Source: Rhizobium tibeticum | GTDB lineage: Bacteria; Pseudomonadota; Alphaproteobacteria; Rhizobiales; Rhizobiaceae | Length of the DNA stretch: 64,000 bases | Assembly: GCF_900110205.1 (NCBI RefSeq) | Contig: NZ_FOCV01000017.1 | Location: 62,001 to 126,000 of the forward strand | Reading direction: 5' to 3' | Notes under the pieces: model-generated | Database searches by the model: none | Told to the model about the DNA's origin: nothing | The model's input: the letters and a program-made list of their open reading frames with translations, nothing else | In this document: one piece after another, positions 9,539 through 13,896 of the stretch | Numbering within the stretch: position 1 is the stretch's first letter | How the letters are laid out: every line of letters starts with the position of its first letter | Translations under genes and position numbers: made by a program

Positions 9539-9985
9539 ATGGCTGACGAGAATAATCCAGACTTGATTGCTGAAGTTGTCAAGAACGATGCCCCGGTAAA
9601 AACGCCCGCGTCGTCCAAGAAGCAGCGTGCACCACGGCGTCAAAAGACGGCTGTCGTACCGGTTCAATCTTCAAAGGCGACGAGTGCGAAGACCCCGACT
9701 GTAAAACCCGGGAAGCGTGGCGAACAAGATAGAGCAGGGAAGCTCAAGTCGATCGCGACGAAAGTCACTGAAGGCGCGAGCACGCTCAACTCCACCATCA
9801 AGAGTGCCGGAAGGAAGAAGGCTGCGAAGCATATTGAACAAACGGCAAAGTCGTCTGTTCTGGCAATCGATGAGATGGCAGATCTTGTTCAACTCGAAGA
9901 GGAGAACCAGAGGCTTCGAAGAACGCTGGCGGAAAAGTTGCGTAAGGAGAATTCCGAGCTACGCAAGCGGCTTGGACTCGATTAA
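9539..9985 (+). CDS. SyrB-like protein, copy 1, with 8-residue deletion in the HTH
   Basis: A 148-residue basic protein with AGGGAG 7 nt before the ATG. It aligns without gaps to copy 2 (10931-11401) over residues 1-91 and over the last 33 residues (116-148), which form a predicted parallel coiled coil (LVQLEEEN...RKRLGLD). Between them copy 1 reads SAG-RKKAAK where copy 2 reads KAG-ISEQTYYLW-KRAAK. Exactly eight residues, most of the HTH recognition helix, are missing, and this accounts for the whole length difference (148 versus 156). SyrB of Sinorhizobium meliloti is known as a repressor of syrM in the nodulation network. With this helix gone, copy 1 probably cannot bind DNA in the usual way but could still pair through its coiled coil. 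Confidence 0.75.
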   Translation: MADENNPDLIAEVVKNDAPVKTPASSKKQRAPRRQKTAVVPVQSSKATSAKTPTVKPGKRGEQDRAGKLKSIATKVTEGASTLNSTIKSAGRKKAAKHIEQTAKSSVLAIDEMADLVQLEEENQRLRRTLAEKLRKENSELRKRLGLD

Positions 9986-10148
9986 CCAGCCAGTGGGGCA
10001 GGTGGCCGGGTCGTGAGAACGACCTCGGGCACTGCATTTTCGGCAGGAAAATTCACCGCGTTCACCTCGTGAGCCGGCGGCGGAACGACGCATCAGGTTG
10101 TTGGAAGCTGCAGCGGCATTGCGGTGCAGTTTGCAAGGTTGAAACACG

Positions 10149-10757
10149 ATGAAATCACCATGGAAATATCTTGTTGGCTTCGGGTCGCGGCGACGACAGG
10201 CAGAAGCACAAGAGAGCTCGATTGGGGATGATCCGGTCTCCGAGGCTTTCGACAGCGAAATCGAACACCTGTCGGTGCTGCCTTCGAATTCAAGGGAAGC
10301 GTCCGGCAAACCTGAGCACAATGGGGACGTCCCAGTTGATCAAATGGCGACGGCTTCAAATGAAGCTGAGGGCGATCTCGATGTCGCACGAGCTGTACTG
10401 CCATCAGCCAGTGTTGAGGAACTTCGCATATCGAACAGTGATCAGGCCGATCATCCAGGTGCTGAAGCGCATGCGTTCGTGCAGGGAAGTGAGACACGCG
10501 TACTGTCTCCACGAGTACCGCGAAACAAGCGTCCAGAACGCCCGAAGCGAACCCGCGTCCGGGAGGCCACGCAGAGCGCCGTTGACATAAACGAAGATCA
10601 AAGCGCTCAATCCTTGACTTTCAAGGAGCCTAGCCTCTTCGATGAAGTGGCGGGCCTCGATGAGGAAATCAAGCAGATGAAAAGGCTATTGGCTCAAAAG
10701 CTCTATTTGCAGAACCTTCAGCTTAAGAAGATGCTTGAGCGGTTTGATGTGTCGTGA
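10149..10757 (+). CDS. SyrB-associated coiled-coil partner protein, copy 1
   Basis: A 202-residue protein 163 bp after the SyrB-like copy 1. The start MKSPWKYLVGFGSRRR is basic. Residues 20-115 are acidic and low in complexity, probably disordered. A basic patch (KRPERPKRTRVR) lies at about 130. The final 34 residues (169-202), from LDEEIKQMKRLLAQKL to MLERFDVS, form a heptad-like helix that aligns without gaps to the C-terminal coiled coil of the SyrB-like proteins and to partner copy 2. There is no HTH. I know no function for this family. The shared helix suggests it dimerises with SyrB-type proteins and modulates them. Confidence 0.6.
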   Translation: MKSPWKYLVGFGSRRRQAEAQESSIGDDPVSEAFDSEIEHLSVLPSNSREASGKPEHNGDVPVDQMATASNEAEGDLDVARAVLPSASVEELRISNSDQADHPGAEAHAFVQGSETRVLSPRVPRNKRPERPKRTRVREATQSAVDINEDQSAQSLTFKEPSLFDEVAGLDEEIKQMKRLLAQKLYLQNLQLKKMLERFDVS

Positions 10758-10930
10758 GCCTGCCTTCACCGCGCTTTTTCGATTGGCGCAAGGTGCAGGT
10801 GCTGTTGGCTGAGCTTTTGGACACGAGAGACATATTGGCTTGAAGGTTTCCCTGGCGAACTTTGGGTGGGGCTTCATTGACTCTTTGGTTCACTGGGATG
10901 AAAAGAAACGTCTTAACGAGGGAGTTGTTG

Positions 10931-11401
10931 ATGGCTGACGAGAGTGAAACCGGACCTATTGCTGTAATGGCGGACACTGATGGCGAGGTGAAAATACCGG
11001 CGCCCAAAAAAGAACGATCGCCACGTGGCCAGAAAACAGCTGCGCAATCGCCTCACGAAGCCACCCAAGCCCCGGCTCCAAAGGCGCCAGCAGCCAAGCC
11101 AAGGAAGCACACTGACAAGGAAAAAATCGAGAAGCTGAAGCTAATCGAGATGCAAGCCTCCGGGGGCAGCGGTACGCTCAAGGACGCCATCAAAAAAGCC
11201 GGCATTTCGGAGCAGACGTACTATCTGTGGAAACGAGCCGCTAAGCCTGTCCAGCAACCCGAGCAGAAGTCAGTTGCCGCTGTCGATGCGTTCGAGGATC
11301 TCGTTCAACTCGAAGAGGAGAACCTTAAGCTTCGCAAGGCGCTGGCTGCAAAGTTGCGGACGGAAAACGCTGAATTGCGCAAGCGTCTCGGGTTAGACTG
11401 A
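10931..11401 (+). CDS. syrB: SyrB family transcriptional regulator, copy 2 (intact HTH)
   Basis: A 156-residue protein. ATG 10931 is chosen because AGGGAG lies 6 nt upstream and the MADES start matches copy 1; the frame is open further back to 10862. Order of parts: Pro/Ala/Lys-rich tail (20-62); a helical HTH of the transposase-OrfA type (EKLKLIEMQ at about 67-75 through TLKDAIKKAGISEQTYYLWK at 82-101); a short linker; then a coiled coil in the last 33 residues ending RKRLGLD. SyrB is known in Sinorhizobium as a negative regulator of syrM and hence of exopolysaccharide and nod gene control. Whether this copy has that target is unknown; syrM is not in the window. Confidence 0.75.
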   Translation: MADESETGPIAVMADTDGEVKIPAPKKERSPRGQKTAAQSPHEATQAPAPKAPAAKPRKHTDKEKIEKLKLIEMQASGGSGTLKDAIKKAGISEQTYYLWKRAAKPVQQPEQKSVAAVDAFEDLVQLEEENLKLRKALAAKLRTENAELRKRLGLD

Positions 11402-11505
11402 GGTTGGTTTGGATTGCTACCGCGCTTTGTGTCGTTGCTGGAGCGCTGGCTTGAAAATGATGGGTCTTTCAACCTCTACAACATTTGGGCTTGGCGGGGT
11501 CTTAC

Positions 11506-11532
11506 AATGACGGCCCCTGCGAGGCCGTCATT
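11506..11532. terminator. Perfect 10-bp inverted repeat between copy 2 genes
   Basis: AATGACGGCC (11506-11515), loop CCTGCGA, GGCCGTCATT (11523-11532). It lies 105 bp after the SyrB copy 2 stop and 130 bp before the partner start. No T-run follows, so it could be an attenuating hairpin, an RNA-stability element or a protein-binding palindrome. Confidence 0.4.
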
Positions 11533-11661
11533 CCGTAAGGGCTTTTGCGTAGCCCCACCCTTCTTGAATGATCCTGCCTGGTTCTGTATTCGGCAGAAGG
11601 CAGGGCTTTAAGGGGCGCTAGTCGGCGCCGGTCGTGCGATATGCTCGGGACACTAGACAAT

Positions 11662-12273
11662 ATGAAAACAAGACAACGCCAGTTCGTGGTAGAGATCAAG
11701 GGAGGACGACGACTGCCGAAGGCGCAGGCGGCATCAATTTGGGGCGGCACGGACCTCAAAGCGTTGACCCGCGAGGTGGAAGACGGGGCACCGCATCTGT
11801 TTTCGTCGGCTGAAGCGCCGCACACGCAGGTCGCAGCGGAAGGCCGGCCTACCCAGCTCCATACAGATTCGGTTTCTGGACATGTCAGGGACGCTGACGG
11901 CAGGGCCCAAGGTATGCCTTCAGCTGCAAGGATTGGCGCTGAAGGGACACCGTCACAGAAGGCCGAGGATGCGAACAAGGTCGGTGTTGCACAGATGCCC
12001 GCGAGCGGGGATGCATTGGAGCCACAACCAACATCGAAGAAAGCCGATGGAAAATCTCGAACACGCAAGCCGGCTCGTGAGACTGGCCGCATGAAGAGGG
12101 GCAAGACGACGGATTCGCGTGAGAAATCCGAAGCCATTCAGAGTTCGATCTCCCTTGATGAGGTGATTGCCCTTGATGCTGAGAACAGACGGCTCAAGCG
12201 GTTATGGGCAGAGCATCTTCTTCGGCAGAACCTGCAACTCAAGAGGATGCTTGGGCGGTTTGGTGTCGTTTAG
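11662..12273 (+). CDS. SyrB-associated coiled-coil partner protein, copy 2
   Basis: A 203-residue protein if started at ATG 11662 (MKTRQRQFVVEIKGGRR), almost the same length as partner copy 1; an ATG at 11641 is a longer alternative. Residues 1-50 (VVEIKGGRR..SIWGGTDLKALTREVE) look folded, about 55-120 are polar and probably disordered, a basic patch (KSRTRKPARETGRMKRGK) follows at about 130-147, and residues 170-203 (LDAENRRLKRLWAEHLLRQN...) form the same C-terminal helix as partner copy 1, including QNLQLK-MLxRFxV. It has no HTH. The N-terminal half differs from partner copy 1, so the two partners share mainly the helix. Function unknown. Confidence 0.6.
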   Translation: MKTRQRQFVVEIKGGRRLPKAQAASIWGGTDLKALTREVEDGAPHLFSSAEAPHTQVAAEGRPTQLHTDSVSGHVRDADGRAQGMPSAARIGAEGTPSQKAEDANKVGVAQMPASGDALEPQPTSKKADGKSRTRKPARETGRMKRGKTTDSREKSEAIQSSISLDEVIALDAENRRLKRLWAEHLLRQNLQLKRMLGRFGVV

Positions 12274-12594: not shown

Positions 12595-13896
12595 TCAATC
12601 CTCCACGACAGATGTCAGCTTACTCCATCCGGTCGGCAACGATGCAGGACGCTGAATGTCGATATCGTCTAGCGTCAGCTTTGTGACCTTGTGTGCAAAG
12701 AATGTCGGCATCCCGCCGGGATAGTCGAAAAGCCCGACTATCTTTCCGTCGGCGCCACGCAGCCACGCGTTGCCGCGCCCCACCACATTCTCCGGAGGTG
12801 TCAGATCGGCGTTGGTCGGGCGAAGATCGTATTGTCTGGCCGTTCCCAACGGACCTTCGTCCATTTTCAGATGCACATTTCGAAGCGTGACCCCATGGAT
12901 GCCTCCGGCTTTTTCGGCAAAGAGGTTAATCGCGCCATGGCAGCGGCCGGTGATGTTCTCCACCCGCACGTTTCGAACGATTCCCGCTGGCAATTCCGGG
13001 CGACGGTCGAGCTGGGTGATCGTCAACGGCTCACCCGAGCCCCAGAAGCCGTCGGGAGTCTCGTGGCAGTCGACCTCTATATCCGAAAAGACAACATCTT
13101 CGATCACTCCGCCATCACGGGAGAAAATGCCGAGGCCGCGGTTTGATTCCTGAATTTTGGAACGCGTAAAACGAACATCGCGGATATCGCCAAAACTCTC
13201 GGTACCTATTTTCAATGCGCAACTCTTACTCTCAACGATGCAATCTGCGACTTCTATCTTCTCGCAGCGTCCGATGCCCATTTCACTTCGGCTCGTCTTC
13301 AGGCAGATTCCGTCGTCGGCAGTGCGGATGACGACATGGTTCACGGCAACGTTGCTGCAGCTGTCGATGACAATCCCGTCCGTGTTCGGGAGTTGGCGAT
13401 TGTTGAAGACTTTGGTGTTCTTGAGGGTCACATCGTGGCAGCGGACGAGGTGAACCGTCCACATAGGAGAGTCCTCGATAGTAAAGCCTTCGAGCCTGAC
13501 ATTGTTGCAATCCTCGAACACAAGGACTCTCGGGCGCTTCTCGCTCGGTGTGAAGGTGCCGACCGTTTCATCGAAGCCGGTACTGAAAGCGTGGCCTGAG
13601 GCAACGATCTTTCCCTCGCCGACGATCGCGATATCACGCGCACCATGCGCCACGATATAAGCACGGTTGGACCCTTCCGCGATCACGCTCACCGAATTTC
13701 CGCTGTAAAGCTCATAGTCAGGCACGAATTCGAGTATCGCCCCCTCGGGAATCAACAGCGTTACGCCACTGGCAAGCCGGATCGGCCCCATGAGGTGCCG
13801 TCCTGCCTGCAGCAGAAGAGTTCCGCCGCCGGCGGCAGCCAACCTGTCGATGAATTGCTGCAGATCAGTGCCATTTGCTTCGACGGAAATGTCCAT
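12595..13896 (-). CDS. Glycoside hydrolase family 28 (polygalacturonase-like), cytoplasmic
   Basis: A 433-residue right-handed beta-helix enzyme. GH28 signatures: NTDGI (171-175), ADDG (193-196, two catalytic aspartates with D173), GTES (231-234, replacing the usual GHG) and NRGLGIFSR (252-260, replacing the RIK region). Family members cleave galacturonic-acid or rhamnogalacturonan linkages in pectin. No signal peptide is present, so it should act inside the cell on imported oligosaccharides, as an exo-type enzyme would. It is divergent from the ABC transporter at 14113, with a 17-bp palindrome (13941-13957) 44 bp upstream of its start that recurs at the other units of this locus. The altered GHG motif leaves the exact glycosidic bond uncertain. 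Confidence 0.85.
   Translation of the reverse strand: MDISVEANGTDLQQFIDRLAAAGGGTLLLQAGRHLMGPIRLASGVTLLIPEGAILEFVPDYELYSGNSVSVIAEGSNRAYIVAHGARDIAIVGEGKIVASGHAFSTGFDETVGTFTPSEKRPRVLVFEDCNNVRLEGFTIEDSPMWTVHLVRCHDVTLKNTKVFNNRQLPNTDGIVIDSCSNVAVNHVVIRTADDGICLKTSRSEMGIGRCEKIEVADCIVESKSCALKIGTESFGDIRDVRFTRSKIQESNRGLGIFSRDGGVIEDVVFSDIEVDCHETPDGFWGSGEPLTITQLDRRPELPAGIVRNVRVENITGRCHGAINLFAEKAGGIHGVTLRNVHLKMDEGPLGTARQYDLRPTNADLTPPENVVGRGNAWLRGADGKIVGLFDYPGGMPTFFAHKVTKLTLDDIDIQRPASLPTGWSKLTSVVED

Follow-up and report, generated by a model that had tools for sequence, protein, structure and literature searches.

A four-gene SyrB-type cassette of Rhizobium tibeticum: a candidate modular regulator with a dedicated, coil-bearing partner

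Introduction

Does a SyrB-type regulator act alone, or together with a partner encoded at its side? The question is raised by a locus in a 64,000-nucleotide stretch of Rhizobium tibeticum DNA (assembly GCF_900110205.1, contig NZ_FOCV01000017.1, positions 62,001 to 126,000; hereafter the window), in which four open reading frames (ORFs) of 148, 202, 156 and 203 codons lie on the plus strand at positions 9539-12273. A preliminary description had read them as a two-gene pair present twice, a SyrB-like regulator followed by a partner; we found the four ORFs with these lengths, but the partners belonged to distinct subfamilies with different front ends. The classes were named by their front ends: the regulators are S (first) and H (second), the partners K (first) and W (second). 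As judged from sequence, we give about even chances to the reading that the cassette encodes a modular, coil-assembled SyrB-type transcriptional regulator with a dedicated partner.

SyrB, a repressor within the circuit for nodulation and exopolysaccharide, has been little studied, and in its description it acts as a single gene product. Barnett and Long reportedly found in 1997 that syrB affects syrM negatively. A review presents SyrB as a negative regulator of SyrM in Sinorhizobium meliloti and lists it among the direct MucR targets in S. fredii (PMC9957244). In a table of another paper, syrB3 is SMa0806 (PMC12542648). No mention of a SyrB partner was met in the literature searched, subscription papers lying largely outside it.

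Regulators and partners of the cassette

The two regulators were 50% identical over their full length, and their first 91 residues aligned without gaps (31/91 identical), as the preliminary description had stated. Directly after residue 91, the alignment revealed that S is without the eight residues ISEQTYYL (H residues 92-99). In the predicted H structure, which contained three helices and a long C-terminal helix, they account for the greater part of helix three (residues 94-103) of the helix-turn-helix (HTH). The Pfam model HTH_Tnp_1 (PF01527) gave 31.5 bits for H and 8.0 bits for S against a cut-off of 24.1, and our own HTH model gave 84.1 and 27.9 bits, with a median of 67.3. Of the two regulators, only H thus had the intact HTH of the SyrB family. 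Both regulators had been proposed to be SyrB-like DNA-binding proteins; this holds for H with its intact HTH, but not for S, which lacks the recognition helix and groups with HTH-less proteins.

In a tree of 118 regulators, the window S fell within an HTH-less clade of S proteins and W-S fusions (41 rows, support 100/99) and H fell outside it; the placement of the window S inside that clade was weakly supported (86/40). Since S and H lie on opposite sides of the 100/99 branch, their divergence must be old. In the window S, the first part of the HTH region is still present, where other S proteins have a basic stretch instead, and the middle of the S class is strongly basic (median pI 11.5, n=23 S). 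Our own loose AT-hook pattern matched 13/23 S, 15/16 W-S (WS), 2/64 H, 1/20 W-HTH-coil (WH), 5/50 K and 4/46 W proteins; two proteins scanned against Pfam, S from L054 and WS from L069, had no match at all up to E 0.1. In the one pair compared, the ratio of nonsynonymous to synonymous substitution rates (dN/dS) was 0.086 for H and 0.31 for S, and by this measure H is under purifying selection.

The partners K and W were about 31% identical and formed two subfamilies with different N-terminal modules. The main likeness within the cassette at the DNA level was a 155-nt stretch (70%) over the 3' ends of both regulators. The tandem duplicate of a pair first proposed is, as a recent event, not supported: the regulators are split by the 100/99 branch and the partners are different subfamilies, and together with the gene-order data this ruled out simple duplication of a pair.

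Structures were predicted for W and H. In the W model, most of residues 52-135 were below 50 in predicted local distance difference test (pLDDT), and the C-terminal helix (residues 165-200) was confident, with block means of 85-98. The disordered middle and C-terminal helix first described for both partners are thus borne out for W by the predicted model. Up to E 1, no sequence match in the PDB was found for the H protein or the W profile. In both K and W, the N-terminal modules and coils were kept across genera and the middle varied. As for the K N-terminus, a membrane helix was ruled out, the hydrophobic moment barely exceeding that of shuffles (mean z 0.32).

Partners lie beside regulators

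The survey of neighbours of the family genes covered 297 genomes from the Rhizobiaceae, the family to which the window belongs. At most 9-12 candidates were scored per genome, and matches may be missed; all 67 regions chosen for W matches were taken in, and the counts leave out two fragments, on G047:C70 and G029:C1682. H matches were taken down to about E 1e-6 when they reached the coil end, minus two fragments, so the numbers of solo H and WH genes are minimum numbers. Duplicates were removed before counting by rules slightly unlike between counts, which leads to small differences in totals. W was matched in 38 genomes, K in 24 and H in 82, and many of the H matches resemble the orfA of insertion sequences (IS).

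Free W genes (n=30) were located directly after H in 17 cases, after K in S-K-W triads in 6 and divergent from H in 6; one, 71 nt from a contig end, was alone. W was therefore beside a family gene in 29/30 cases, 23 of them beside H and 6 behind K. The K genes (n=34) lay after W-S (14), after S (11), after the window S (1), before H (4), before an S remnant (1) or alone (3). Counting the remnant, 31/34 were beside a regulator, 26 directly after an HTH-less regulator and none after an intact H. One of the lone K genes was 2.4 kb upstream of H (L070), and another recurred, again alone, in a 13-kb stretch of a second genome (L075, L076). Viewed from the regulator, S was followed by K in 11/11 cases and W-S in 14/16, with a K fragment in one more; because S and W-S are one clade, the S-K link counts as one evolutionary association and not as dozens. 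The preliminary description had suggested that conserved adjacency to syrB homologues would indicate a working unit, and the counts for W and K, as well as the fusion of W to regulators, support it.

Six module models were applied over 135 loci. Before removal of duplicates they identified 55 K, 49 W, 66 H, 26 S, 20 W-HTH-coil and 17 W-S or W-coil ORFs; 27 of the 66 H had the Sn module, and the window and T136 S copies are included among the H through their HTH remnant. With duplicates removed, the orders were H-W (16), S-K-W (12), WS-K (10, plus 3 without the Sn module), S-K (7) and K-H-W (6), in addition to solo H (at least 24), solo WH (at least 20) and rarer forms. The S-K-H-W type was present at three loci: the window and T136, both scored H K H W, and pC5.7c of R. 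rhizogenes. Two loci, L107 and L154, had none of the family architectures. The W module without the coil occurred in 12 ORFs, part of them ended by contig ends, and these were kept out of the W count.

In twelve K loci (Sinorhizobium and others), no S remnant was detected just upstream of K on the same strand; the few matches outside known family genes (L044, L057, L075, L076 and L159) were weak, with E values of 1e-4 to 0.007 and composition correction off. Clustering revealed no non-family neighbour specific to a single kind of cassette; the broadest clusters spanned 13 loci in mixed contexts.

Several loci had further features. Two 57-codon ORFs had the W module and no coil: L087:1613-1786, on contig C147 of the same genome as the window, and L083:6479-6652. 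At L088, L091 and L108, divergent H and W were followed by an extra ORF, called at about 240-250 codons, whose coil resembles that of the partners. L159:2018-10585 carried K-H-W near repABC; an IS3 transposase gene and one of the ProQ/FinO family separated the two, and a ProQ/FinO gene also followed W at L001. Several partnerless solo H genes per genome were present at L111-L150 (G086, G165, G226 and others), and some of them lay on a contig as large as a chromosome (G165:C1, 5.7 Mb).

Fusion of W to regulators and a nested start

W was also found fused to a regulator, in at least 20 W-HTH-coil (WH) genes and 16 W-S genes, and the two WH proteins scanned matched PF01527 over the Pfam cut-off. 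The fused genes begin with the W module, and the regulator starts from an internal Met after some 70-90 residues. In 16/16 W-S genes, the internal MADE-type ATG had AGGA, GGAG or GAGG ending 4-10 nt upstream, compared with 5/58 other in-frame ATGs and 247/3657 other codons. GAG was not the favoured Glu codon overall (139, versus 161 GAA). In the W-H genes, the motif preceded the internal ATG in 15/19 cases, compared with 13/45 other in-frame ATGs and 560/4846 other codons; in the set used for pairing energies, 3/20 W-H genes were without the internal-Met motif, two of them with a near match. The fused-gene rows are kin, hence no probability is stated. Because the internal ATG and its Shine-Dalgarno-like motif are kept in all 16 W-S fusions, one fused gene is likely to give both a long W-regulator and a short regulator, most strongly so for W-S.

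A C-terminal coil common to the four proteins

The C-terminal regions of regulators and partners were similar to each other, with pairwise scores of z 7.3 to 10.8 and 0/2000 shuffles as high. Iterated profile searches started from S, K, H and W had the same 173 ORFs in common, because all four proteins carry the C-terminal coil. The coil contains two core positions, 15 residues apart. At the first, Asn was present in S (23/23), H (64/64, including the window and T136 S copies), W (46/46), WH (20/20) and WS (16/16), that is, in 169/169 proteins, whereas all 50 of 50 K proteins had Ile (44) or Val (6). At the second, every class had Asn, though the anchoring favoured Asn there. Asn at both core positions in S, H, W, WH and WS fits mutual pairing of these classes, and the signature would speak for W pairing with H or S. 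The architectures, adjacency, fusions, conserved internal ATG with its motif and coil signature are established by sequence.

Proposed model

From these sequences alone, we infer translation from the internal start, assembly, DNA binding, a docking role and an effect on target genes. In the model, H would be the sequence-specific DNA-binding subunit, with an IS3-OrfA-type HTH and then a coil, like SyrB. W would be its dedicated partner, a HTH-less protein in which a conserved N-terminal docking peptide (FVVE.K..RR..SIWG.TDLKA) would be joined by a flexible acidic linker to a matching coil. Through the coil, W may join H, or S at other loci, and it could provide the promoter bound by H with a contact, for example with RNA polymerase or a different regulator; H and W would then stand in the relation of regulator and modulator. 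S-K would be a side branch: its regulator would have lost the recognition helix and, in the majority of members, acquired a basic AT-hook-like middle, and its K would have altered one coil core residue; the S-K pair probably tunes or competes with H-W. In the fused W-regulator genes, the internal start would still give the short regulator, so that long and short subunits are both made.

Several observations weigh against this model. At least 24 of the 51 H genes (52 with the window S) had no neighbour and the WH genes, at least 20 in number, were alone in 20/20 cases, and therefore the HTH subunit can act alone; taken together, the neighbour counts mean that the partners depend on the regulators far more than the reverse. 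K has Ile or Val at the core, which disfavours a plain S-K coil pair. The fusions run W then regulator and the split loci mostly regulator then W, so fusion must have been more than simple loss of a stop codon. The pairing-energy rank of the internal start among the codons of its own gene had a median of 0.06 in W-S, with 7/16 below 0.05, and in W-H a median of 0.22, with 1/17 below 0.05, which is weaker than the motif signal. Free W genes had weak ribosome sites at their assigned starts (median -3.4 kcal/mol versus -6.6 to -6.95 kcal/mol for K, S and H). Full-length dN/dS was high for K (0.87) and W (0.59), one pair each. The W and H models were weak overall, with predicted template modelling scores of 0.24 and 0.27, and Foldseek found nothing at E <=0.001 for the H model.

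A broader form of the model, which we rate well below even chances, is a combinatorial regulator system, nearly Rhizobiaceae-only. Its front ends would be interchangeable on a single type of coil: an HTH that reads sequence, a basic HTH-less part, the W docking peptide and the K peptide. Pairing would follow a coil code, with Asn for S, H and W and Ile/Val for K. The genes would be adjacent, or fused with a nested start that gives the short subunit, and the HTH-less pair would serve as a built-in brake.

Alternative explanations

We consider it unlikely that S-K is a built-in antagonist, in which coil complexes of the helix-less S with K sequester H or W, as Id proteins do with basic helix-loop-helix proteins. 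S and the W-S proteins form a HTH-less clade, the window S is without precisely the recognition-helix residues and retains the H coil with both Asn, and S-K lies directly before H-W in the window and at two other loci. However, S-K has no adjacent H at many loci (S-K 7, S-K-W 12, WS-K 10) and must have a job away from H there, the strongly basic S middle (median pI 11.5) may itself bind DNA, and the K coil core deviates.

Quite improbable is the idea that K and W are decaying duplicates of regulators, retained through plasmid hitch-hiking. Their high dN/dS in one pair would agree with decay, as would the 12 coil-less W-module ORFs, some of them cut at contig ends; but the N-terminal modules and coils are kept across genera while the middle varies, the coil core residues are constant per class, and adjacency and fusion are recurrent.

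Very improbable, finally, is that the cassette is what remains of transposons, namely orfA pieces from IS3-type elements, in line with the public label 'transposase'. In favour of this, H matches HTH_Tnp_1, the extra-family matches listed cover only the HTH-coil part of the fused protein and are mostly ORFs of about 80-150 codons, and a presumed real IS3 orfA in L070 gets a weak score (15.6 bits) from the models used here. The reading was set aside because orfB is absent between or after the genes (the next gene is a Glyco_hydro_28 gene on the other strand) and the IS3 transposase model NF033516 scores H at 21.1 bits versus a cut-off of 160, and H is under apparent purifying selection and the gene orders recur. 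No strong pair of terminal inverted repeats framing the cassette was listed, though gapped repeats could escape. A phage origin was ruled out by a search of 50,697 phage records, in which H and W had no match at E 0.001.

Coordinates, surroundings and distribution

The features of the cassette are listed in Table 1; the assigned starts were consistent with relatives for K, W and S, and for H in its Sn module.

Table 1. Positions of the cassette genes and their parts within the window.
Feature	Position	Strand	Description
S gene	9539..9985	+	148 residues; SyrB paralogue without recognition helix, front of HTH region kept; S clade
S 8-residue gap junction	9809..9814	+	ISEQTYYL of H absent; from alignment, position hand-counted
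S C-terminal coil	9869..9976	+	residues 111-146
K gene	10149..10757	+	202 residues; MKSPWKYL N-terminus, then variable middle, then coil
K C-terminal coil	10638..10742 (approximate limits)	+	Ile, not Asn, at first core position
H gene	10931..11401	+	156 residues; SyrB type, intact IS3-OrfA-like HTH; PF01527
H three-helix HTH	11108..11239	+	residues 60-103; Pfam match and predicted model
H C-terminal coil	11279..11389	+	residues 117-153; predicted model
W gene	11662..12273	+	203 residues; RQFVVEIK..RR..SIWGGTDLKAL N-terminal module, disordered middle, coil
W N-terminal module	11662..11811	+	residues 1-50; same module fronts fused genes elsewhere
W C-terminal coil	12154..12261	+	residues 165-200; predicted model

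A MobA/MobL relaxase-helicase gene and a DUF6118 gene were located 5' of the cassette. Directly 3' of it is a family-28 glycosyl hydrolase gene (Glyco_hydro_28, window 12598-13896, minus strand), and beyond that a solute-binding protein gene and further ORFs resembling an ABC transporter. The nearest relatives of the cassette lay on plasmids of Rhizobium sp. T136, T1470 and T1473, with the same four-gene order in all three by match coordinates; T136 (locus L004) was also read directly. Contig C71 of the same genome carries a second cassette, in the S-K-W triad form (L058:6187-7962).

Three full-length H genes on pSymA of S. meliloti 1021 matched H over residues 1-156 with 67, 60 and 59% identity. 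They lie near 442, 880 and 958 kb and are followed, respectively, by W, a W remnant and W; a partner is therefore present in the type organism too. The order K-H-W occurs near 957 kb of this plasmid. We take these matches to be the named syrB genes. A fourth, partial H match was observed on pSymA near 464 kb.

W-like sequence was present in 292 plasmid records, of which 215 were predicted to be conjugative and 2 were from Roseibium, a genus of Stappiaceae; H matches were likewise found in 2 Roseibium records, both from match tallies only. The family is therefore nearly, yet incompletely, confined to Rhizobiaceae. Across 297 genomes sampled from the order, with no more than 9 candidates scored in each, no match listed from outside the family covered the W module; among the matches listed there, all started at query residue 97 or later of the fused protein, and most were short ORFs like IS3 orfA.

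In public annotation, intact HTH SyrB-type genes are labelled 'transposase' (plasmid records L001, L003, L159 and L163), HTH-less genes 'SyrB-like regulator' (L003, L157 and L158) and some W-type matches 'transcriptional regulator'. Labels that set 'transposase' against 'SyrB-like regulator' conceal the SyrB-type cassette. If the proposed model is true, single-gene studies of SyrB missed half of the unit, the partner being beside the pSymA genes themselves, and the cassette would be a clear example of an insertion-sequence protein that became a multi-part regulator.

Comparison with known systems

Genes with nested in-frame starts yield long and short isoforms. The W-S fusions resemble them in that 16/16 genes keep an internal ATG preceded by a motif of Shine-Dalgarno type; here, the isoforms are predicted, and the signal is weaker in W-H.

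The Id-type helix-loop-helix inhibitors are decoys without the DNA-reading part. S is alike in being a paralogue that retains the oligomerising part without the part that reads DNA, and its gene lies next to that of the DNA-binding form. We use this as a likeness without a claim of homology or of antagonism; a difference is the basic middle that most S proteins carry.

The OrfA proteins of the IS3 family (HTH_Tnp_1, PF01527) share the arrangement of a HTH followed by a coil, and the Pfam match is present in H and WH. In contrast, the genes studied here have no orfB and a long N-terminal extension, carry the W module in fusions, and comprise two regulator classes with partners.

H is homologous to SyrB of S. 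meliloti end to end, with both the HTH and the coil, although the window S copy differs from it in being without the recognition helix. SyrB was described alone, whereas here and on pSymA a W gene or its remnant follows.

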